Origin: a virus
IMG/VR virus record: IMGVR_UViG_3300030090_000611
Span: 1 to 34,805 of that record
Length of the DNA: 34,805 nt
Strand: one strand, 5' to 3'
The notes under the pieces were generated by a model. That model had not been told where the DNA came from. It saw nothing but the letters and a program-made list of their open reading frames with translations, and searched no databases. The first letter of the stretch is position 1; the number at the start of each line of letters is the position of its first letter. Made by a program: the position numbers and the translations under genes. Positions 1 through 29,507 of this stretch are shown in pieces.

Positions 1-1
1 A

Positions 2-2557
2 GGTGCTGGAGTAGTAAGTAGATCTGTAGGAGACGTTTCAACTACAGTAGGTAGAGTTGGTAAACGTACAGGTCAAATAGCTACAGCAACAGGTATAGAA
101 GCATCGGGAGAAGGTGTTGGTCAAACAGTATCTCCTATTTCAGCTCCATTTAAAAAGAAAGCAAGAACAACTACAAAAGTAGATAAACGTGGTAGAACTG
201 TCCAAGTAGGTGAAACAGGGAGAGGAAAAATGGGACGAAGTGGGCCAGATAATTTATCTGAATTTAGTGATGTAGACGAACAGGCAGCAGAAAAAGCAGC
301 GCAAGATGCAGCGGATACAAAAGCAACAAAAGATAAAAAAGAAGATCAAAAACTTGATCCTACAAAAAAAGATCCTGCAAGAGACTTGCTAGGTAAAGCT
401 CGTACAGATGATCCTACTACTAAAACTTTCACGCCTACAAGAGCTAGAGTTAAAAAATTAAGAGTTGGAGATGCAAGAACAGATGAAGAAAAACTTAAAG
501 CAGGTATAAGTACAGATGTTCAGCAACTAGATGCTTATGAAGATATTACTGATCCTACAGATATAGAAAGAACTACTATTCAACAAACAACAGCAGATAC
601 CGCAACTGCGGAAACACCTGATGCTATAGAGGCTGCTAGTTATGATGCAGTTCGTGCAGAAGAATTAGATCCAACAGAAGCAGCTAAAGGCAGAGTTTCT
701 CGTATTGCAGAAGCAGAAGGCCCTACATTAACAGAAAGATCTGAAGCAGCAAAAAGAGATGCAGAAGCAGAAGAACGATCTTTAGCAAGGGCAGCAGATT
801 ACCAAATTTCTGATGATGCTTTTGTAGGAAGAGTAGAAGGACAAACTACTGATATAGTAGAAACAGATCCTGCCGAAAAAAATGAAAGAGAAGCTGTAAT
901 AGGAATGCCAGCACCAGATGGTCAAGCTGCTCAAATATTAAATGAATATGGATTTGGAAGTTCTAAAAGAAAACCAAGAACAGTAACAGGTCAAAAAGCA
1001 AAAGAATTAGTAGCAAATCAATTAGCGGCTGATTATGATTTACCTGCGGATGTTGCTAATGAAATTGCTAATGATATAGGAAGATTAAATGTAGAAGAAC
1101 AATCTCAAGAATCTTTAGGGGCTGTAGCAGCTTTACCTAAAGAAGCTTTAGTTTCTACTCAAATAGAATCATTATTATCTGGAATGGAAGAAGGTAATCC
1201 TCCTTCTTGGGCTAGACCAGCAGTAGCGGCTGTAGAACAGATGTTAGCTAAAAGAGGTTTGTCAGCCTCTACAGTAGGTAGAGATGCTCTATTCAATGCT
1301 ATTATACAAAGTGCTGTTCCTATTGCACAATCAAATGCTACAGCACTACAACAAAGAGCAGCACAAAATCTTTCTAATGAACAACAAGCTTTAATACAAG
1401 ACCGCCAAATAGCTGCAAGTTTCTTAGAAAAGAACGCAGCATTTAAACAACAAATGGAACTTGCTAATCTTAGTAATGATCAACAAATGAGACTTGCTAA
1501 TCTTACTGCTCAAAATCAAGCTTCATCTGAAAATCTTAATGCAGCGCAGCAAACTGAACTAGCTAATCTTAATGCTAGATTGCAGACTAATTTACTATCT
1601 AATAAAATTGCTGCCGATATGAATCAAGCACAGCTAACTGTAGATCAACAGAGAGCTATATCAAATGCAAACATGGTTGCTAAAGTAGATATGGCTCAAT
1701 TTAGTGCTGAACAACAAGTAGAGCTTGCTAATAGTAAATTTATGCAGACTGCTACTTTAACAGATTATAATGCTAGACAACAAAGTGCTGTTCAAAATGC
1801 AACACTAATGGCTCAAATGGATTTAGCAGCAGCAGATCAACGAACTAAATTAGCTATTACTAATGCTCAAAATTTTCTTAAAATGGATTTAGCAAACTTA
1901 TCAAACGAACAACAAGCTTTAGTATTAGATCAACAATTAAAACAACAAAGAATATTATCTAATCAATCTGCCGAAAATGCAGCACTACAATTTAATGCTG
2001 TTTCTGAAAATCAAACAAATCAGTTCATGGCTAATCTTGAAGCTAATATGAATCAATTTAATACTGCTCAAACTAATTCAATGGCACAGTTTAATGCAGC
2101 AGAGGCAAATAAAATAGCTGCTCAAAATGCAGCAAATGATATGGCAGCAGCCAAGTTTGATACTCAAATGAGTGTACAAGTAAAACAATTTAATGAACAA
2201 ATGGATCTTCAAAGAGATACATGGAATGCTCAGAACGCACAGGCTGTAGAACAGTCTAACATTGAATGGAGAAGAAAAGCAAACACTATAGATAATGCAG
2301 CACAGAATGCTTCTAATATGCTTAATGCTCAACAAGCTTTTGCTATTAGTAGTGCAGAGCAAAATTTTATATGGCAAGAGTTACGAGATCAAGCAGCGTA
2401 TCTTAGACAGAATTATGAAAATGATCAACAACGAAGAACAACTTTATATGCAACAGCTATTGCTAATGAAACATCAGTAGCTGAAAAATCTAAAGTTAGA
2501 CCAGATGATTTAGTAGCTGATATTGATGGTCTATATAGAACTGGTAAAGTGGGGTAA
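2..2557 (+). CDS. Virion protein with long hendecad coiled coil (5' end outside window)
   Basis: The frame is open to the left edge with no stop, so the gene very likely starts upstream; the ATG at 230 is only the first Met in the window and has no good ribosome site. Counting from that Met, residues 1-330 are polar and Ala/Glu/Thr rich. From about residue 365 to 738 the chain is Gln/Asn/Ala rich and falls into 34 consecutive 11-residue units without a slip, for example MELANLSNDQQ at 409-419 followed by MRLANLTAQNQ. An 11-residue repeat is the mark of a right-handed (hendecad) coiled coil. The gene stands first in a run of large virion-type genes and is followed 4 nt later by the next. By position and composition it is probably a tail or internal virion (ejection) protein; this is inference, and no catalytic motif was seen. 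Confidence 0.8.
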   Translation, partial: GAGVVSRSVGDVSTTVGRVGKRTGQIATATGIEASGEGVGQTVSPISAPFKKKARTTTKVDKRGRTVQVGETGRGKMGRSGPDNLSEFSDVDEQAAEKAAQDAADTKATKDKKEDQKLDPTKKDPARDLLGKARTDDPTTKTFTPTRARVKKLRVGDARTDEEKLKAGISTDVQQLDAYEDITDPTDIERTTIQQTTADTATAETPDAIEAASYDAVRAEELDPTEAAKGRVSRIAEAEGPTLTERSEAAKRDAEAEERSLARAADYQISDDAFVGRVEGQTTDIVETDPAEKNEREAVIGMPAPDGQAAQILNEYGFGSSKRKPRTVTGQKAKELVANQLAADYDLPADVANEIANDIGRLNVEEQSQESLGAVAALPKEALVSTQIESLLSGMEEGNPPSWARPAVAAVEQMLAKRGLSASTVGRDALFNAIIQSAVPIAQSNATALQQRAAQNLSNEQQALIQDRQIAASFLEKNAAFKQQMELANLSNDQQMRLANLTAQNQASSENLNAAQQTELANLNARLQTNLLSNKIAADMNQAQLTVDQQRAISNANMVAKVDMAQFSAEQQVELANSKFMQTATLTDYNARQQSAVQNATLMAQMDLAAADQRTKLAITNAQNFLKMDLANLSNEQQALVLDQQLKQQRILSNQSAENAALQFNAVSENQTNQFMANLEANMNQFNTAQTNSMAQFNAAEANKIAAQNAANDMAAAKFDTQMSVQVKQFNEQMDLQRDTWNAQNAQAVEQSNIEWRRKANTIDNAAQNASNMLNAQQAFAISSAEQNFIWQELRDQAAYLRQNYENDQQRRTTLYATAIANETSVAEKSKVRPDDLVADIDGLYRTGKVG

Positions 2558-2561
2558 AACT

Positions 2562-3962
2562 ATGGGATTTTTTAAAAAAATATTCAAAGGTATCGGTAAA
2601 GTTTTTAAAAAAATTGGAAAAGGAATTAAAAGAGCCTTTAAAAAATTTGGAAAGTTTATGGGTAAACTTGGTATAGTTGGACAGCTTGCAATGATGTTTA
2701 TCCTACCGGGGATAGGAGGTGCGCTCTTAAAGGGCTTTGGAGCAATGGCAGGTAAGATGGCAGGGTTCACTAGTAAATTTGGAGGTTTAGCTGGTAAAGC
2801 TTTAACTACTGTTGTTAAAGGAGCAGGTACTGTTCTTAAAGGAGCGCACAGCTTTGTACAAACAGGAGTCAATGCTTTTAAAACAGTAACCAATGGTATT
2901 ATGGAATTTGGTAAAACTGCTTTAAATAAACTTCCGGGTATAAATATACAAAGTGCTACTCCTGATTTTTTTGGCGAAGAAGGTGTATTTAATAAAATAT
3001 CCACAGATGCAAAAAGAATTTTTGATCCTTTTAAATCTAGTATAACTGCAACAAAAGATATGACTTTAAAATCTTTAAGTAAAACTACAGGACTATCTGA
3101 AGGGCAATTACAAAGATTAAATGGAGCTACTGATTTAACTCAAATGAAACAAGGCATGAAAATTAATTTAGATTTTAATAAAATGCCAGTAGATAAAACA
3201 ATACCCGGATATACGCTAGGATCAGGTCTACCTGCTGTTAATCCAAGTGATGTTAACTATGAGTCATTAAATAAATCTGTTAGTCCTGATATGGTTCAAA
3301 ACTTTGATGCTTCGTCAATACCTGAAGCACCTTTTAAAACTGACACACCTTTTAGTGTAGATGCAGCGGCAGGAACTTCTATAGAAGCTCAATCATTACC
3401 TAATTATAATTTAGAAAGAGGTTTTGGAACTGAAGCACCTTTTAAAACTGATGCTTCTTCTCTACTAGGTGCTGCTCCAGAGTCTTTAGTAGGTACTGAT
3501 AAAGAGTCTTTATTATTAGGAAGTGATTTTAGTCCAGAAAAAGGTTTTACTACTGATGTAGATTTATCAGGAGCAACTAGTAGTATAGGTGATAGTACAA
3601 AAGAATTTTTTAGAGATAAAGTTTTTAAGCTTGAACCCGGAGAAACTTTTGGTCAAGGATTTAAACGACAAACAGGAGAAGCTATTGGTTCTCAAATTAG
3701 AAGTGTTGCAACACAGTCAATACTTGGTGGAGGGCAAGAAGCACCCCCTGAAGAATTTGTAGGTTCTTATGGGCAACCTGTAGATGCTGGTACAGTTCAA
3801 ATTACAGCGGCTACCCCTATGAATGATGTTTATAATCAAGCTTATAATGCTCCTGCGTTTGGAGGAGGAGCATACTTAAATCAATCTTTAGATATATTTA
3901 ATATGAATTTAGGTGCTGGTACTTATCGACAATTTGCTCCAAGAGCCGGGGGAATGGCATAA
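2562..3962 (+). CDS. Virion-type protein with cationic amphipathic N-terminus
   Basis: A protein of 466 aa. I chose ATG 2562 (MGFFKKIFKG) over the in-frame ATG 2523, which lies inside the upstream gene; a GTGGGG stretch precedes 2562. Residues 1-37 hold 13 Lys/Arg and no acidic residue, with Phe/Ile spaced as in an amphipathic helix. A Gly/Ala/Met/Leu-rich hydrophobic stretch follows at about 36-70. This resembles membrane-active peptides. The rest is low-complexity and polar; the motif EAPFKTD occurs twice in the middle. The stop overlaps the next start as TAATG. I do not recognise the family. Its place between virion-type genes suggests a structural or ejected protein that can touch membranes or DNA. 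Confidence 0.8.
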   Translation: MGFFKKIFKGIGKVFKKIGKGIKRAFKKFGKFMGKLGIVGQLAMMFILPGIGGALLKGFGAMAGKMAGFTSKFGGLAGKALTTVVKGAGTVLKGAHSFVQTGVNAFKTVTNGIMEFGKTALNKLPGINIQSATPDFFGEEGVFNKISTDAKRIFDPFKSSITATKDMTLKSLSKTTGLSEGQLQRLNGATDLTQMKQGMKINLDFNKMPVDKTIPGYTLGSGLPAVNPSDVNYESLNKSVSPDMVQNFDASSIPEAPFKTDTPFSVDAAAGTSIEAQSLPNYNLERGFGTEAPFKTDASSLLGAAPESLVGTDKESLLLGSDFSPEKGFTTDVDLSGATSSIGDSTKEFFRDKVFKLEPGETFGQGFKRQTGEAIGSQIRSVATQSILGGGQEAPPEEFVGSYGQPVDAGTVQITAATPMNDVYNQAYNAPAFGGGAYLNQSLDIFNMNLGAGTYRQFAPRAGGMA

Positions 3963-4492
3963 TGGCTGTAGAAAATCCTAATGATCCTTTATTTAAAGTA
4001 GCTTTTAATAGACCTATACCCGGAGAATCTTTAGTAAATAGTCCTGAAGAACCTTATCCTTGGGAAAAACCTACGGAGTTTAATTCTGTATATAAAGCTT
4101 CTGAATATCTTTTTGAAGAACTTACGGATGAGGATATGTACCCTGCTATTATATCTTTACTTGATAAAGGAACTCCTGTATTAAGCCTTGCTCAGATTAT
4201 TTTATTTAAAGGTTTTAATGAAGGTAAATGGAATCCTGATTTAATGATGTTGTTACTAGAGCCGACTGTATATATGTTAGCATCTTTAGCAGAAAGAGCT
4301 GATATTGATTTTGTATTAGATGTTGATGATGATGAAGAAGAAAACTACGAATCTCAATTTACTACTAAGACAAAATTTAATGTTCTTAAAAATCTTCAAG
4401 ATCCTGAAGTCCAATCAGTCAGCCCTGAACTCGAAGAAAAAATAGATGAAGTTTCTGAAAAACTTCCAAGCTTACTAGATAAGGAACAATAA
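3962..4492 (+). CDS. Conserved-type phage protein, acidic, unknown function
   Basis: A protein of 176 aa beginning MAVENPNDPL. It shares one base with the stop of the gene before (TAATG) and one with the gene after, so the three are translationally coupled. The middle is helical and hydrophobic (PAIISLLDKGTPVLSLAQII), followed by an acidic patch DVDDDEEE near residues 120-127 and a charged C-terminal helix. It has no signal peptide and no catalytic motif. Given its position inside the virion block it may be a small tail or internal virion component, or a chaperone for one. Confidence 0.8.
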   Translation: MAVENPNDPLFKVAFNRPIPGESLVNSPEEPYPWEKPTEFNSVYKASEYLFEELTDEDMYPAIISLLDKGTPVLSLAQIILFKGFNEGKWNPDLMMLLLEPTVYMLASLAERADIDFVLDVDDDEEENYESQFTTKTKFNVLKNLQDPEVQSVSPELEEKIDEVSEKLPSLLDKEQ

Positions 4493-6357
4493 TGTTAGGT
4501 GATAATGAAGATTTAAACTTAGATCAGTTAGGTCAACAGCTTTCGGCACAAGCTGCTAAAAAAGGAGAAGAAAGAAGAGCAGCAGCAGAAGCGGGAGGTG
4601 GTAATCAATTAATAGATTCTCTTAAAGAGTTTGCAGTTAATGCAGCAGTAGGGGGCGTAACTAATTTCTTTAACACTAGAGCAAATAAAAAAGCTTTTGA
4701 GTTTCAACAAAGAGAAGCAATACAAGCTGCTACAGCTAAATATAATAATGGTGTAGATAATGCTATAAAGCTAAAACAAGATTGGGCAGAAGCTACTAAT
4801 TTTGCGGGGGGCCGAAGAGCATGGGCTATTCAAAAATTTAGACCTATATTTGAAAAAGAACTATTTAAAAATATAGATGAAAAAACTTATACAAAAGATG
4901 GGATAGATAAATATCTTGATCAACGACTTGAAGAATATGTTGATAAAACTTTTATGCCTTTATTTGTAGCAGGAAATGCAGCAGCAAATAGAATGAACAA
5001 TACTAAAGAGGATTTCCAAAGATTTATTTTAGTTAATGATGGTATTGCTGATAATGCAACTGGTGCAGTTTTTCAAGCAGCTAAAAAATTATTTACAGGT
5101 AAAGATGGTAATGCAATTAAAGCTGAAGCAAAAATTGTTAATTCTAATCTTGTAAAAACAGCAGAAGGTGTTAACTTAATTAGTAGGTTAATGTATCAAG
5201 GTTTAGATGTTAAAGATGCAGTTAAAGTTGGAAAAGAGTTTGAAAAAAATAGATATACTGATGCTGATTATAATATTGAAAAGAGTAGAGAATTTAAAAC
5301 TGAAAAACATACAATAGATGGTATTGATGTAACTTTAGGGTTTACTAAAGTAGTAAGGGCAAATGACAGAGATCAAACACGAACCTTCCGCATTTATGAA
5401 GATGGAAGCCAAAAATTTGCAGATCAACTAAACGGAGAGCGTTTTGAAACAAAAGATTTAAATATATCTGGAGATTTAGTTCAGCGACAAACTGTTTATA
5501 GTATAGTAAAAGGACAACCTCAAGAACCTTTTGTAAGGTATAAATATTTAGGAGTAGATGAAGAAGGAGTTCAAGGTATTTCAGATCAAGCAAGTACAAC
5601 TGCTAATAATATGTTCAAAGAATATATTAATTTAACTCCTGTAGCAGAAGGAAGACCTCAAGTTTTTGGAGACTACACTGACATAGATAATAAATCTTAT
5701 AATGGAGGTGATGCTTTTTCATCAGAAACTCCTGATTCTGTAATAAATGCTCAAATAGCAAATAAAGATAAACATACTGTTAAAAATGCGGCTCGTATAA
5801 GGAGTAATTTTAAAATTGCAGACTATGATCAAAACGATAAAGAATTATCTTTGCATATTGCAACCGCTGCTCGTATGATTGATATAAGAAGGATGTTTGA
5901 TGATGAAGGCCCTCTTGCAACATCTACTCTTGATTTTGGTTCTAGTAGAAGAATTGCAACTTCAGAGCCTTCTTATTTAGAAACATTTGAAGCAATAGGG
6001 TTAGTTAATGCTGTTAATCCAAGTATTAAGATAGATGGAAAAATGATAAATGACATAGCTAATTTAGGCCCATTTTTAGAAGAGTTACGTTTTTTAAAAC
6101 AAGATGCAATAGAAGAATTAAACAAAGATCAATTTGGCCCTATAAGAAGAAGAATAACAGAATTATACAATACATTTACAAAGTATGAAAAAAATGATGC
6201 GTATAAATTTTTGTTTGATGAAAATATGATAAAGACAAAACTTATTGTAAGCCAAGGTAAAATTATAAGTAGAACAATAAAGCCAGAACTAAACGAAGTA
6301 CCTACATCAATTTTTCAAGAAGTTGAAAGTTTATATACTTTAGCACAACAACAATAG
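4492..6357 (+). CDS. Large virion-type protein (internal virion/ejection protein candidate)
   Basis: A protein of 621 aa with an ATG coupled to the upstream stop as TAATG. The N-terminal 40 residues are Ala/Glu/Gln/Arg rich. There is a short hydrophobic stretch around 45-60, then a long Lys/Glu/Asp-rich helical body with few cysteines. No enzyme motif was found. It lies directly before the 1801 aa giant, the place taken by middle-sized internal virion proteins in T7-like phages (gp15 before gp16). I assign it only by position and size; a sequence relation to gp15 cannot be claimed from reading. Confidence 0.8.
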   Translation: MLGDNEDLNLDQLGQQLSAQAAKKGEERRAAAEAGGGNQLIDSLKEFAVNAAVGGVTNFFNTRANKKAFEFQQREAIQAATAKYNNGVDNAIKLKQDWAEATNFAGGRRAWAIQKFRPIFEKELFKNIDEKTYTKDGIDKYLDQRLEEYVDKTFMPLFVAGNAAANRMNNTKEDFQRFILVNDGIADNATGAVFQAAKKLFTGKDGNAIKAEAKIVNSNLVKTAEGVNLISRLMYQGLDVKDAVKVGKEFEKNRYTDADYNIEKSREFKTEKHTIDGIDVTLGFTKVVRANDRDQTRTFRIYEDGSQKFADQLNGERFETKDLNISGDLVQRQTVYSIVKGQPQEPFVRYKYLGVDEEGVQGISDQASTTANNMFKEYINLTPVAEGRPQVFGDYTDIDNKSYNGGDAFSSETPDSVINAQIANKDKHTVKNAARIRSNFKIADYDQNDKELSLHIATAARMIDIRRMFDDEGPLATSTLDFGSSRRIATSEPSYLETFEAIGLVNAVNPSIKIDGKMINDIANLGPFLEELRFLKQDAIEELNKDQFGPIRRRITELYNTFTKYEKNDAYKFLFDENMIKTKLIVSQGKIISRTIKPELNEVPTSIFQEVESLYTLAQQQ

Positions 6358-6366
6358 GTAAATAGT

Positions 6367-9300
6367 ATGGCAATAGTAACTTCTTCATTATATGATGACT
6401 CTGAAATAAATAATTTATTATTAAAAAGTCCATCATCAATAGATGATACTCCTAAAACGACAAATGATTTAAGCACTAATAGTTTTGTTTTAAGACACGG
6501 TGTTCCTTTAGTTGAAAAAATTGAAAATAGTAATGCTTTTTCATCTTATTTTAATCAAGGTATAACTGATGCTTTTTTTGATAAACCTAAATACTTTGAT
6601 GGTGATGATGTTATTTCTCATTTAAGAAAACAACAATCTGCACTATTAAGTGCTGGAGCTATTTCTCAAATTTTACAGACAGATGAGTTTAATGATTTTG
6701 ATAGAGAAAACTATGCAAAATTAAAAACTATGTTTGATAATGTAGGCCCTGAAGGATTTACTGAATGGGTAGATGCTATTGTTTCAAATACTGGTCATGT
6801 TCTTAATGACCCTGCTACTTATGTAGGAGGAGGCATAGGAGCTTTAGGAATAAAAGGTTTAATTAAATTAGCACAGGTTTCAAATAATCCTTTATTAAAG
6901 AAAGCAGCAGCTAAATATGTAGGTACAGGATATACTGGATTTGCCTCACAAGGAGCAGCTTCTGGTCTTATATATGGAGGTGTGGCTAATGTAGGCCAAC
7001 AAAATCTTAATTTAGCTTTAGGTTTACAAGATGAATTTAAATATGGAGATTTGGGTATTGCGGGTATTACAGGATTTGGAGGAGGAGCAGCGATTGGAAC
7101 AGCTTTAAGAGGTATACCTGATGTTGCTTCTAAAACAAGAAATTTATTTAAAAACGATAATGATCAAAAAGTTTTTAATAAAACAATAGATGAAGAAGTT
7201 GTTCATAATAACATTAAGAATGATACAGGAGAACCTTTACAAGACTCTATTGTTATAGAAGCTATACCTTATATACAATCAAAAGAAACAAAAGTATACT
7301 ATGATACCTCTGAAGAGTTTATTGAGGCTGCGTTACCTGTTGAGGGGCCTTCTAGGTGGCAACAAAAAAGAGCAAAAGAATCTTCAAAGAAAACAAGACT
7401 AGAAGAAAAAGAAGAAAGATTGTATGGTGGTTTTATGACAGAAGAAATGATCATGCAAGCCTCCAAAGATTATAATGTTAATCCAAATGAGATTATAGAA
7501 AATGCATTAGACTACGAAGCAAGTAGAGATATTCCTTCTATTGAAGATGTATCAGATATGGCTTTTTATTATGAAGTAGATCAAAGTCCTTTTATTCCTA
7601 GAAGCTGGAATGATGAATATAAAAATATTTATAAAGATCATAATGCGCTAGAGAGTTCTAGAACTTTTAGAGAAAAATCTATGCGTAATTTTAGAGATCA
7701 TATGGATGCAAAGAAACAAGCTAAAGAAGAAAAAAGATTAAAAAGACAAAAACAAAAAGATGCTTTATTAGAAAAAGAACAAGCAGAAAGACCAAACCCT
7801 TTTGTTATTGAACCTATAAATTACACTCCTCCAAAGTATGATCACTATGATGCTATTATTGATATGGCTAAAGATTTAGATTATGTAGATCCTCCGAAGC
7901 AATCTTTAAATGCAGGTCAAAAGTTTTCGGACGATATTGGAGGAGGTAACCAAGTAGCAGAAGAAGCCGCAGATATTCATCAACAAGTTAATACAGGACA
8001 GATTACTCCTGATACTGCTAGAGCAAGACTATCTAAAGCAATACAACGAATACATGGTGTTTATCTTTTTGGAAAGCCTACTAAAATTTTAACACAATTT
8101 TTAAATGATTCAAAAATAGCTACAGACTTAGCAGCAAGAATAAGATACGATGCTAACAAAACTTATTCGTCAGATTCTGAAGCTGTTAATTTTGATTACA
8201 ACGAAACTTATAAAGAATATGCAGGTGGTTTATATTCTAGTTTTATGAGAACTCTTGAAAACATTAGACCTTTTATGAGAGGCAAAGGGAAAGATACTAC
8301 TTTTGAATTATTATCTAGGGCATTAAGAGGAGAACGTAGCGAGTTTGATGAGATTAATGCGGCTGCTGATGAAATAAGAATTAATATATTTAATAAAGTA
8401 GCAGAAGATAGTGATCGTTTAAATATTAATCCTGATGTAGATATTAGCAATTATTTTCCTAGATTGTGGGATCGTTCTGCAATAATAAAAGATTTTTACG
8501 GTACTAAATTTGAACCTATTTTAGATAAAGGCAAATATGCAGGGCAAGGCGAAATGAAACTTGCAAAGATGTTGCTTGAAGATGGTCAAGCTCAATCTGA
8601 ACAAGAAGCGTATAAAATTGTAATGGATATGCTAGATAAAAAAGGTAGTGATTTACATAGTTCTGGTAATAGTTTTTTTACTAAAAGAATATTTGATAAA
8701 ATTAAAGACGATAACAAATACAGTGAGTTTTTAGATAATGACATATCTAATGTTATTTATAACTACATAACTCAAGCGGCAGGTACACACGCTAAAAAAA
8801 CTGTTTTAGGTGTAGATAATATTGTTCAGTTTGAAAAAATGTGGGTAGATAAAATAGCAGAAGAAGTAACTTCTAAAAGAGGTAAGAGTGCTTTTAGCGC
8901 AAGCGATAGAGAACAAATTCTTCATTTATATAAAACTATTACTGGAGAAGAGTTAGAAGATTTTGGCCCCGCAGGTCAGTTTATTAGAGATGGTTATGTG
9001 ATGCTTACAAGAATGGCAACGCTACCTTTATCTACTATTTCAAGTTTAACAGAAGTATTAATTAATGTTCAAAAAGCTGGACTAGGACAGACTGCAAAAG
9101 GAATGGGATTTGCGTTAAATCAAGGAACTAAGTGGTTGACTGCTAGTTTAGCTGATAAATTAATGAAAAATCATAATTTAAGCAGACCTGAAGCTATAAA
9201 TGAAATGAGAGAGTTTTTCTTTTTTGTAGATAATGCGGCTGTTTCTAGTGTAGATCGTTTAGCTGATGCATCTATCGCTAATAGAACTATGCAGAATATT

Positions 9301-14019: not shown

Positions 14020-14490
14020 ATGATATTTGAATCAATAGCTGCTATAAGCGCGGCATTAGGTGCTGTTAATGGTCTTATTGGACAAGTCAAAGAATCTGGA
14101 GGACATATAAATTCTGTATTAGATAGGATGCAAGCTATTAATTCAGGAATGCAAAAATATGAAATAGAAAAACGTGAGTCATTAGTACAGCCTTTAACAC
14201 CACAAGAGGCTATGAAATTAGCTATGGCTAAAAGACAAATGGATAGGTTTCACGAAGAGCTAAAAAATATGGCAGTTCTTTCTAGAGATCATCAAAAATT
14301 TGTAGATGATTACTTTCAAGTAATAGCAGAATCTAAAGCACAACATGAAGCATCAGTTAGAGCTGTGCTAGAAAAACGTAAACAAAGAAAACAATTACTA
14401 CATGATCTTTTTGTTTGGACTTCAGTAAGTGGGATTGGTTTAATAATATCTGCTATAATAATAGCAATGGTTATAGCAATATTCAAATGA
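14020..14490 (+). CDS. Coiled-coil protein with C-terminal membrane anchor, lysis region
   Basis: A protein of 156 aa. The N-terminus (IFESIAAISAALGAVNGLIG) is mildly hydrophobic, the middle (residues 50-125) is a charged helical coiled coil, and the C-terminus (131-155) is a clear transmembrane segment ending IAIFK. It overlaps the next gene by ATGA. It could be a tail-anchored partner of the holin or a spanin-like protein, though a classical inner-membrane spanin has its anchor at the N-terminus. The family is not recognised with certainty. Confidence 0.75.
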   Translation: MIFESIAAISAALGAVNGLIGQVKESGGHINSVLDRMQAINSGMQKYEIEKRESLVQPLTPQEAMKLAMAKRQMDRFHEELKNMAVLSRDHQKFVDDYFQVIAESKAQHEASVRAVLEKRKQRKQLLHDLFVWTSVSGIGLIISAIIIAMVIAIFK

Positions 14491-14705: not shown

Positions 14706-14897
14706 ATGGCAGTTAAAAAGAAAAAATCTAAATCAAAAGTAAATCAAGCTGGTAATTATACTAAGCCGACAATGCGAAAAAGATTATTCAATAAAATTAA
14801 AGCAGGATCTAAAGGAGGCAAGCCGGGACAATGGAGTGCTAGGAAAGCTCAGATGCTTGCTAAACAATATAAAGCTGCTGGAGGTGGATATAAATAA
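14706..14897 (+). CDS. Small very basic protein 1
   Basis: A protein of 63 aa, roughly one third Lys/Arg, starting MAVKKKKSKSK and ending AAGGGYK. The core GSKGGKPGQWSARKAQMLAK reads like a short conserved motif repeatedly seen in uncultured marine phages. No structure or function is known to me; the charge suggests nucleic acid binding. It is directly followed by the next basic gene with no gap. Confidence 0.75.
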   Translation: MAVKKKKSKSKVNQAGNYTKPTMRKRLFNKIKAGSKGGKPGQWSARKAQMLAKQYKAAGGGYK

Positions 14898-15176
14898 ATG
14901 GCTGATCCAAAGAAAGGAACTGGTAAAAAACCTAAAGGTAGTGGTAGAAGATTATATACGGATGAAAATCCTAAAGATACTGTACGAATTAAATATGCAA
15001 CTGTTCAAGACGCTAGAGATACAGTACGAAAGGTGAAAAATATTAGAAAGCCTTTTGCCAGAAAAATACAGATACTAACTGTTATGGAGCAGAGGGCTAA
15101 AGTAGCAGGTAAAAAGAAACAAGCAGAAATAGCAAAGCAAGGAAAAGAATCTATACGAAGAAAAAATAAAAAATAA
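14898..15176 (+). CDS. Small very basic protein 2
   Basis: A protein of 92 aa abutting the previous stop. It starts MADPKKGTGKKPKGSGRRLY, has a helical centre (VQDARDTVRKVKNIRKPFARKI) and ends SIRRKNKK. The order of this gene after the GQWSARKAQ protein is familiar from marine phage contigs, but no function is known. It is the last gene before the glutamine riboswitch-like RNA, which begins only about 4 nt after its stop. A DNA- or RNA-binding role is inferred from charge alone. Confidence 0.75.
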   Translation: MADPKKGTGKKPKGSGRRLYTDENPKDTVRIKYATVQDARDTVRKVKNIRKPFARKIQILTVMEQRAKVAGKKKQAEIAKQGKESIRRKNKK

Positions 15177-15179
15177 ATT

Positions 15180-15229
15180 ACGTTCATCCTTATAGGACGG
15201 AAGTAGGCATATAATGCCGAAGGAACGCA
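15180..15229 (+). ncRNA. Glutamine riboswitch-like RNA (glnA / Downstream-peptide group)
   Basis: The stretch folds into a three-way junction. P1 is CGTTC (15181-15185) with GAACG (15223-15227). P2 is TCCT (15187-15190) with AGGA (15194-15197). P3 is GGCA (15206-15209) with TGCC (15215-15218). The joining strands read CGGAAGTAGG and CCGAAGGAACGCA, which are the conserved bases I know from the glnA RNA motif, a glutamine-binding aptamer of cyanobacteria, marine metagenomes and phages. A small peptide gene with a strong ribosome site follows 36 nt later, the usual arrangement. Which of the two glutamine classes it belongs to cannot be settled by eye. Confidence 0.82.
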
Positions 15230-15264
15230 TTGATGAAGTTTATCAATCTAACTGGAGGTATAAT

Positions 15265-15411
15265 ATGGCTGAATATTACAGAGGCTTTAAGCATGACGGA
15301 AAAATAAAAGAATCTTCAAAAGTTAAATCAGGGATTTATCGTGGAGTAAAATGGTATGAAACAGACTCAACAGAAAATACTGACAAAAAAAGAACTGAAG
15401 GAACTAATTAA
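15265..15411 (+). CDS. 48 aa YRG-motif peptide under riboswitch (DUF4278-like)
   Basis: I chose ATG 15265 because GGAGG lies 6 nt ahead (15254-15258). The in-frame ATG at 15214 sits inside stem P3 of the riboswitch and would translate the RNA itself. The peptide starts MAEYYRGFKHDGKI and holds two YRG motifs, YYRGF (4-8) and YRGVKW (25-30). These resemble the short YRG-repeat (DUF4278-type) proteins that follow glutamine riboswitches in marine cyanobacteria. In cyanobacteria such small peptides are tied to nitrogen status; whether this phage copy acts on host nitrogen metabolism is inference. Confidence 0.75.
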   Translation: MAEYYRGFKHDGKIKESSKVKSGIYRGVKWYETDSTENTDKKRTEGTN

Positions 15412-15441
15412 ACAACAACAAAATAAAAGGCACACTCAATA

Positions 15442-15687
15442 ATGGCATTAAAAAAATCTCAAAGATCTTTAAAATCTTGGACAAAACAGAAGTGGCGTAC
15501 TAAATCTGGTAAGCCTAGTGCTAAAACTGGAGAAAGGTATTTGCCTGAAAAAGCTATCAAAGCTTTATCTTCTAAAGAATATGCTGCAACTACTCGTAAA
15601 AAACGAGAAGATACCAAAAAAGGTAAACAGCATAGCAAGCAACCTAAAAAGATTGCAAAGAAAACAAGGAGCTATAGAAAGAAATGA
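15442..15687 (+). CDS. Small very basic protein 3
   Basis: A protein of 81 aa, about one third Lys/Arg, starting MALKKSQRSLKSWTKQKW. The segments SGKPSAKTGERYLPEKAIKA and the tail KKIAKKTRSYRKK recall a conserved small protein of T4-like and podovirus-like marine phages of unknown role. Its stop overlaps the next start as ATGA. It lies downstream of the riboswitch and could be co-transcribed with the YRG peptide; no terminator was seen between them. Confidence 0.75.
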   Translation: MALKKSQRSLKSWTKQKWRTKSGKPSAKTGERYLPEKAIKALSSKEYAATTRKKREDTKKGKQHSKQPKKIAKKTRSYRKK

Positions 15688-16019
15688 GAGAAGCATATAA
15701 GAAAGGAAGTAAAACCAAAAAGAAAAAAGATCCTCGACTAGCAAAGGCAGGTGTTTCAGGATATAACAAACCTAAAAGAACTCCAAAGCACCCTACAAAA
15801 TCCCACGTTGTAGTAGCCAAGCAAGGAGATAAAATAAAAACAATTCGATTTGGTCAACAGGGCGTTAGAGGGGCAGGTAAGAATCCTAAGAGCGCAAAAG
15901 ATAAAGCTCGAAAAAGATCATACTATGCTAGGCATAACGCACAAGATCCTAACCCTTCTAAACTTTCAGCTCGTTACTGGTCGCATCGTGTTAAATGGAA
16001 AGACGGAGGACAGGTATGA
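15684..16019 (+). CDS. Small very basic protein 4 (DUF6321-like)
   Basis: A protein of 111 aa with an ATGA overlap to the previous gene. Its features are KKKDPRLAKAGVSGYNKPK (15-33), TKSHVVVAKQGDKIKTIRFG (about 38-57) and a C-terminal YWSHRVKW. I recall this combination from marine phage proteins of unknown function (DUF6321 group); the number is from memory and should be checked. The sequence is strongly basic with a short beta-like centre. Together with the three other basic proteins it may bind DNA or RNA, but no experiment is known to me. Confidence 0.75.
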   Translation: MREAYKKGSKTKKKKDPRLAKAGVSGYNKPKRTPKHPTKSHVVVAKQGDKIKTIRFGQQGVRGAGKNPKSAKDKARKRSYYARHNAQDPNPSKLSARYWSHRVKWKDGGQV

Positions 16020-28535: not shown

Positions 28536-29507
28536 TTAGGCAGCTATTTTAAACAATGAATTAGTCGAGATAACCTCTCTAACCTTTTCAGAGTTCTTGT
28601 AGTTTACCATAGGCATATCAACAACTGGCTTGGCTTTGGTAGGAGATGGCCCATAATGACTAGACCAATCGGTCAATACATTATAGACAGCCCAAAGATT
28701 GTGTCCAAGTCTAGGAGCATAGTCAGAAGTGTATTTACTAAGCATATATACTAATGCTTTGTTATTATAAACCGCACTATCATTTAAAGTTTCGTCCCAT
28801 CTTTGTCCTTCTTTCAAAAGCTGTAATGCTTTTTTAGAACCTGCCAACTCTGCAATAATACTAAAGAATTGAGAGATACTGACTTTAGTTTCGTACCATC
28901 TATGCCATATGGTATTTTGCTGGTCGAGGATACCTACAACATTGCTTATAATATTAGCAGCGTGTTCTAAATTTAAAGACATGGTGTGCCTATTTTTATA
29001 AACACTAGCGGCCCCTGCTGTAAATACTTGACCATTCAAGCAAGCAGACTGTCGGATACCAACTGATTGCCAGTAAGCCATTTTAGAATTATAAGCGTTG
29101 ACTGCAAGAAATGTAAGCTCCCCAGTATCACCGCATGGAGTTGTAATAGTATGTTCTGGTAACAGGTGTCTAACAAAACATACTGCACCATCTTCTCCAA
29201 CAGTAATGGTTTCTTCTAGCCCTTCTAAATTTAAAGAAGATCTTTTAAGAATTGAGCGAGTGCTGTCTATCATATCTTTATGATGTACTGGCTTGTATCG
29301 CTGACCATGTGTCCCTAACTCAAGACCAGTATCAGTCCTAAAATAAACTTTCTTTTTATTCTGAGCTATCTCAATATCGGAACCGTCATTTAAGACAGCC
29401 GTATAATATGGTATTGCTGTCAATACTTCAAAGTCAGCATCGCCATATCCTTGAGGAAACTCAGTAGTGATTGCACTAGATCCGAACATATTAACTATAT
29501 TATCCAA
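28536..29507 (-). CDS. DUF932-like phage protein
   Basis: A protein of 323 aa. GTHGQRYKPVHHKDMID (65-81), SVGIRQSACLNGQVF (about 148-162) and the overall order of a beta-rich N-terminal and helical C-terminal half resemble the DUF932 family of phage and plasmid proteins, whose job is unknown; some members lie near recombination genes. A promoter-like site and a structured leader of about 150 nt precede it, so it is probably made early and in quantity. ATG 29507 has only a distant GGAG (about 11 nt). Confidence 0.72.
   Translation of the reverse strand: MDNIVNMFGSSAITTEFPQGYGDADFEVLTAIPYYTAVLNDGSDIEIAQNKKKVYFRTDTGLELGTHGQRYKPVHHKDMIDSTRSILKRSSLNLEGLEETITVGEDGAVCFVRHLLPEHTITTPCGDTGELTFLAVNAYNSKMAYWQSVGIRQSACLNGQVFTAGAASVYKNRHTMSLNLEHAANIISNVVGILDQQNTIWHRWYETKVSISQFFSIIAELAGSKKALQLLKEGQRWDETLNDSAVYNNKALVYMLSKYTSDYAPRLGHNLWAVYNVLTDWSSHYGPSPTKAKPVVDMPMVNYKNSEKVREVISTNSLFKIAA

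Follow-up and report, generated by a model that had tools for sequence, protein, structure and literature searches.

The viral record IMGVR_UViG_3300030090_000611 carries a glutamine riboswitch aptamer that is followed by a hairpin, by a gene for a 48-aa peptide with two YRG motifs, and by a second short open reading frame (ORF) overlapping the tail of the peptide gene (Table 1). The window, that is the whole stretch of DNA analyzed, comprises positions 1 to 34,805 of this record (34,805 bases) and encodes tail, LysM, and endolysin proteins, ribonucleotide reductase, DNA polymerase, primase/helicase, and terminase. Its relatives measure ~54 kb, so the contig is probably a fragment. The unit is flanked by the genes at 14898 and 15442, with the upstream gene ending at 15176, immediately 5′ of the aptamer. 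The original prediction had placed it among late genes, which fits as far as position goes, since the tail, LysM, and endolysin genes lie 5′ of it on the same strand. The flanking genes (14706–15176 and 15442–16019) are short Lys/Arg-rich ORFs, in agreement with the basic proteins described there. Elsewhere in the window, positions 28536–29507 of the minus strand encode a DUF932 protein (Pfam 66.7 bits, cut-off 23; TIGR03299 scored under its own cut-off).

Table 1. Features of the riboswitch unit and the gene downstream (window coordinates).
Feature	Position	Strand	Basis
Type I glutamine riboswitch aptamer	15179–15231	+	RF01739 match
Helix P1	15181–15185/15223–15227	+	Aptamer helix
Helix P2	15187–15189/15195–15197	+	Aptamer helix
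Helix P3	15206–15208/15216–15218	+	Aptamer helix
Proposed masking element (loop and 3′ strand of P3)	15208–15218	+	Predicted pairing with 15257–15267, ligand-free
Hairpin, 19 bases, between aptamer and ribosome-binding site	15229–15247	+	Present in free and aptamer-constrained folds
Shine-Dalgarno GGAGG of YRG gene	15254–15258	+	Sequence; kept in seven relatives
Start codon of YRG gene	15265–15267	+	Sequence; kept in seven relatives
48-aa YRG peptide gene, DUF4278-like	15265–15411	+	ORF with two YRG motifs
28-aa ORF, +1 frame, MKQTQQKILTKKELKELIKQQQNKRHTQ, over YRG tail	15356–15442	+	Open in 7/7 relatives
81-aa basic phage protein, phrog_14910	15442–15687	+	Start overlaps second-ORF stop

Two Rfam models had been named for the RNA predicted upstream of the peptide, and one of them was matched. 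RF01739 (Glutamine) aligned at full length (model 1–53 of 53; 59.8 bits, cut-off 35, E 6e-11) and was the sole match over any curated cut-off when the whole window was compared with all Rfam families using cmscan. RF01704 (Downstream-peptide, now Glutamine-II) scored 15.8 bits at the same place, under its cut-off of 33, and the aptamer is therefore of type I. Both joining strands quoted in the prediction are in place, CGGAAGTAGG at 15198–15207 and CCGAAGGAACGCA at 15217–15229. With this hit, the RNA belongs to a known riboswitch class, and the first half of the refuting condition stated with the prediction, absence of a covariance-model hit, did not apply; the RNA very probably binds glutamine. 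We aligned 45 viral aptamers (the window and 44 of 98 pattern-collected viral aptamers, picked by eye for spread) and found the pairs of P1, P2, and P3 intact in 100% of 482 cells. Two-sided changes numbered 41 against a shuffle mean of 9.8; P2 and P3 covary, and P1 is invariant. Among the seven closest sequences, namely the window and six viral contigs with the same pattern of aptamer end plus hairpin (L212 being the contig of L002), a single aptamer pair varies: the first pair of P3 occurs as GC, GU, or AU and is never broken.

Predicted folding of the leader

All eight pairs of the hairpin 3′ of the aptamer (8/8) are invariant in the seven sequences; with the stem identical across these relatives, it offers no covariation to judge by. 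The strong GGAGG of the prediction is present ahead of the ATG. In the fold predicted without ligand, the loop and 3′ strand of P3 cover the end of this Shine-Dalgarno sequence and the ATG, and two Shine-Dalgarno bases pair with P3 at 0.74–0.99 in six of the seven sequences (0.16 in L209). Enforcing P1, P2, and P3 made the start codon more accessible in 7/7 sequences at each of three lengths, with values going from 0.01 to 0.41–0.52 in the window and from 0.02–0.43 to 0.15–0.88 in the others. The free fold was the more stable by 1.2 to 5.9 kcal/mol, a gap that ligand binding could plausibly bridge. A translational switch turned on by glutamine is suggested because the start codon is buried in the predicted ligand-free fold of all seven and exposed once the aptamer forms, and also because the tested cyanobacterial glutamine switches, type I and type II alike, activate with glutamine according to section 12 of PMC6316151. 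We regard such an ON switch as probable on the modeled folds.

The Shine-Dalgarno sequence behaved differently. Its accessibility showed no consistent rise with the aptamer fold across the seven sequences and fell in most relatives; when 60 coding bases of the window were included, enforcing the aptamer lowered it from 0.60 to 0.05, as the Shine-Dalgarno paired with the coding region. Taken alone, these values speak against the ON model and would suit a working OFF-type switch in which high glutamine lowers peptide synthesis. We consider an OFF switch improbable, given the rise at the start codon in every sequence and length and the activation by the cyanobacterial switches.

Sequence variation at the proposed masking element was limited. 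At the start, the window and L002 have TATAATATG in common, together with a longer P3 loop, and the other five have TATATTATG with a shorter loop; this single event is only suggestive of covariation for a masking pairing. Across 91 viral leaders, pairing of P3 with the leader's own start was slightly above that with swapped partners (34/2000 permutations reached it; mean rank 0.48), and because this set-wide pairing is weak, other phages may use other platforms.

Two overlapping reading frames and the gene downstream

The YRG gene encodes 48, 52, or 56 aa across the seven relatives, with a variable tail and a conserved first part, 30 codons being ungapped in 7/7. As predicted, the 48-aa peptide of the window contains YRG motifs, two in number. 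The DUF4278 profile (PF14105) matched it at 18.4 bits (E 0.0028), under the gathering cut-off of 25.3; among aligned phage-type YRG peptides, 19/19 matched DUF4278 with E values of at most 0.1 (best 3e-9). DUF4278 is described as the main neighbor of glutamine riboswitches in cyanobacteria (PMC6316151), and the proposed kinship with the peptides found behind such RNAs there is supported by these matches. AlphaFold predicted two β-hairpins and a loose tail (mean pLDDT 71, pTM 0.30). No PDB fold matched below E 4, and no relatives of the peptide were found in named phages at E 1. PirA, reportedly absent from marine picocyanobacteria, was set aside as a candidate for these peptides on that report.

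The unit had been predicted to hold one peptide gene. The 48-aa gene stands, but its 18-residue tail overlaps a conserved 28-aa ORF in another frame, and the unit therefore contains two coding frames. The second ORF spans 27–28 codons in all seven sequences, its length nearly constant while that of the YRG gene varies, and starts just after the second YRGVKW. A GGAG (15343–15346) inside the YRG codons lies 9 bases upstream of its ATG. Of the 27 sites at each codon position of the second ORF, 14, 9, and 22 vary. Variation is lowest at the sites that serve the YRG gene as third codon positions, contrary to the pattern that constraint from the YRG frame would produce (Fisher P 0.0008, with columns taken as independent and kinship ignored). 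In this alignment, the second ORF varies like coding DNA. Homology of the second ORF to the glutamine synthetase (GS) inactivating factors IF7/IF17 was unsupported by profile searches run each way and by comparing the profiles with each other: against the GS-inactivating part, the window's second ORF scored −2.9 bits, with 173/200 shuffles as good, and only two of 23 peptides (L012 and L022) beat nearly all shuffles.

The stop codon of the second ORF overlaps the next start (TAATG in the window) in 5/7 sequences (the window, L002, L074, L209, and L211), so a signal may be passed on by translational coupling, and the gene for the 81-aa basic protein is possibly coupled to the second ORF. In L208 and L210, TTGACA-17-TATAAT follows the second ORF instead, and with this promoter-like sequence the next gene there appears uncoupled. 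The promoter-like sequences are perfect and lie near 2000–2050 in L208 (minus strand) and at 3620–3650 in L210.

The conservation of the frame and end point of the second ORF, which the YRG tail does not share, and the overlap with the next start in five of the seven would also fit a YRG frame that is mainly a leader and itself inert, the switch serving the 28-aa protein or, by coupling, the next gene of the structural operon. We think this unlikely as well. The 30 ungapped YRG codons argue against it, as do the YRG genes that stand alone after aptamers in other phages (L024, L088, and L090) and the lack of coupling in L208 and L210.

Movement, distribution, and probable host

Aptamer and peptide travel together as a unit that occupies different gene positions, three among the seven relatives. 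In L002, L074, L209, and L211, the unit lies 3′ of a homolog of the gene at 15684, and in L208 and L210 immediately 3′ of a homolog of the gene at 14020. In L013, a contig closest to Roseobacter phage CRP-3, an aptamer and a 42-aa YRG gene stand between homologs of the same neighbors as in the window (the genes at 14706 and 15442); a second ORF was not seen in this unit. The cassette has apparently moved between viruses as a unit. Such differing positions could reflect a cassette captured from cyanophages and kept without present function, as recent or selfish DNA. In line with this, the aptamer pattern was missing from the best 80 among 599 relatives found for the gene at 15684, a biased sample for judging absence, and the presumed host family had no DUF4278 in 100 genomes (below). 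Nevertheless, aptamer, hairpin, Shine-Dalgarno, and both frames are kept over peptides down to 48–63% identity, and the first pair of P3 changes between GC, GU, and AU without breaking, which leaves a functionless cassette with little credibility.

We scanned viral contigs for the aptamer pattern and found at least 119 stretches. Glutamine switches are thus not uncommon among marine phages, and phage examples have been published (PMC9004378). Among the matches listed, the first ORF 3′ of the viral aptamer was ≤80 aa in 119/119 (median 48) and contained YRG in 36/119. These figures derive from 124 loci, many on related contigs. Of the 124 aptamers, 5 were omitted for a contig end within 120 bases; in tandem arrays only the last copy was assigned an ORF, leaving 22 copies without one, and taking the first ORF can at times select a spurious frame. 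At random positions, 50% of 783 first ORFs were ≤80 aa. Similar units occur on contigs closest to T4-like cyanophages (L012 and L040); in several cyanophage-like contigs the YRG gene overlaps a second short basic ORF by 4 bases, and in L081 the two are fused. In five further contigs (L029, L034, L042, L053, and L089), the aptamer precedes a 51-aa ORF and then another gene, which we take to be peroxiredoxin-like.

In bacterial genomes, the aptamer pattern had at least 120 matches. Among those listed, cyanobacterial aptamers often accompany YRG proteins, some of them IF7/IF17-like, and tandem aptamers in Alphaproteobacteria lie 5′ of glutamine synthetase (L219) and ammonium transporters (L254 and L318); in SAR86, an aptamer precedes glutamate synthase (L331). 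RF01739 was detected in 97/100 genomes of the family of L254, titled Pelagibacteraceae (the presumed host family), which is hard to square with the statement in section 12 of PMC6316151 that such switches are restricted to cyanobacteria. In 100 genomes of this SAR11 family, we detected neither DUF4278 at E 0.001 (0/100; control positive in Synechococcus elongatus) nor matches to profile A1 of phage YRG peptides (0/100; control positive in 7/9 records). Profile A1 detects phage-type peptides only, because it missed the cyanobacterium of L227, which has YRG genes.

Other arrangements were seen in bacterial contigs. In three SAR86 contigs (L309, L311, and L323), tandem aptamers precede small ORFs ending in DNPFYP or FFPYYL; the copy in L311 is probably chromosomal, since that contig measures 482 kb. 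In the genome contigs L288 and L329, a lone glutamine aptamer stands before a gene of the circularly permuted ATP-grasp type. A Porticoccaceae MAG contig (L263) encodes a 60-aa peptide with three YRG motifs after the aptamer, near a 462-aa ORF that is presumably a tyrosine recombinase, and this locus is perhaps a mobile island or prophage.

The terminase of the window best matched those of Pelagibacter phages HTVC115P, HTVC103P, and HTVC104P (65–67% identity), and the DNA polymerase likewise those of HTVC103P/HTVC115P-type Pelagibacter phages (51–52%). The nrdB gene was closest to that of HTVC115P (69%), bases 1–8000 had HTVC104P, HTVC103P, and HTVC115P as best matches at the DNA level, and the neighboring gene at 15684 was closest to those of Roseobacter phage CRP-345 and SAR116 phage HMO-2011. 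Judged by the best-match identity of terminase and DNA polymerase, the contig, probably a fragment, belongs to an HMO-2011-type podophage whose closest named relatives infect Pelagibacter. Because of all these nearest relatives, SAR11 or another alphaproteobacterium is the likely host, and a cyanobacterium is unlikely. Neither the whole of HTVC115P nor the initial 20–22 kb of HTVC103P, HTVC104P, and HTVC033P contained an RF01739 match over the cut-off. A cyanobacterial host whose own genes the switch and peptide mimic would account for the cyanobacterial pairing of DUF4278 with glutamine riboswitches and for the similar units in cyanophage-like contigs, but is very unlikely with terminase, polymerase, nrdB, and bases 1–8000 all closest to Pelagibacter phages and no photosynthesis genes among the protein families matched in the window.

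Proposed function and relation to known systems

We propose, with a probability of about 0.55, that a type I switch in a podophage probably infecting SAR11 most likely turns on translation of the YRG peptide at high glutamine. At low glutamine, the P3 loop and 3′ strand would pair with the Shine-Dalgarno end and the start codon, hiding the start; with glutamine present, P1, P2, and P3 would close and free it. A second protein of 27–28 aa would be read from the overlapping frame via the Shine-Dalgarno inside the YRG codons, and coupling at its stop may relay the signal to the next gene. Together, aptamer and peptide make up a cassette placed at several points in related phages. We only tentatively place the target of the peptides in host nitrogen or glutamine metabolism. 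The three positions of the cassette and the same neighbor genes in the Roseobacter-phage-like contig are in favor of this proposal, and so is the presence of the aptamer throughout most of the presumed host family, in the named cases before glnA and amt. Against it stand the inconsistent Shine-Dalgarno accessibility, the low pairing in L209, the weak set-wide pairing, the single covariation event, the DUF4278 score under its cut-off, and the lack of the aptamer in the three closest isolates where scanned.

These observations suggest that the phage may tune small proteins to the nitrogen state of its host. Pelagiphage infection is reported to raise host glnA, gltB, gltD, and amt transcripts (PMC12753301). 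More speculatively, and with considerable doubt, several marine phage lineages may have turned glutamine sensing into a shared platform for tiny effectors. Each lineage would then fit its own 30–80-codon gene to the same aptamer. The effector, often a YRG peptide plus a second short basic chain, would be made in a nitrogen-replete host and act on host nitrogen assimilation, partly as a functional analog of IF17 split over two overlapping frames. The locus offers a compact test case, with one metabolite sensor and two overlapping tiny genes behind it, and the tiny first ORFs after all 119 viral aptamers among the matches listed point the way to many others.

That phages carry glutamine riboswitches, and that in cyanobacteria such switches are paired with DUF4278, is already published. 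The glnA and Downstream-peptide motifs were described in cyanobacteria and marine samples by Weinberg and colleagues (PMC2864571), glutamine riboswitches are carried by Melnitz, Mosig, and AG-345-P14 (PMC9004378), and T4-like cyanophages are said to have them (PMC9602691, PMC9964418); a pelagimyophage survey is reported to have detected none (PMC7029224). In the literature covered, which includes few subscription papers, we found no report of the cassette, of its overlapping frame, or of HMO-2011-type phages with a glutamine riboswitch, and no account of a mobile cassette that joins an aptamer to two tiny, overlapping genes in a phage probably infecting SAR11.

With type I glutamine riboswitches (RF01739, glnA RNA), the window shares the full-length aptamer, the joining strands, and the three helices; in contrast to the typical arrangement, its copy is phage-borne and single and precedes a tiny peptide gene in a structural operon, not a nitrogen gene. 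Type II riboswitches (RF01704) also lie 5′ of short DUF4278 genes in marine picocyanobacteria (PMC6316151), but the window fails their model. The cyanobacterial gifB leader and IF17 present the order riboswitch, DUF4278, and GS-inactivating part, and the phage unit the order aptamer, YRG, and second short basic chain; the phage chain, however, is in another frame, far shorter, and without supported IF7/IF17 homology. The tandem aptamers before glnA and amt in the SAR11 family (L219 and L254) are of the same aptamer family as the window, whereas they precede enzymes or transporters, and the YRG peptide was not found in the 100 family genomes. The riboswitches of Melnitz, Mosig, AG-345-P14, and T4-like cyanophages are reported to be of the same aptamer class and are likewise phage-borne; that of Melnitz lies beside a tmRNA gene in a 141-kb myophage, as reported, whereas the window carries a YRG cassette in an HMO-2011-type podophage.
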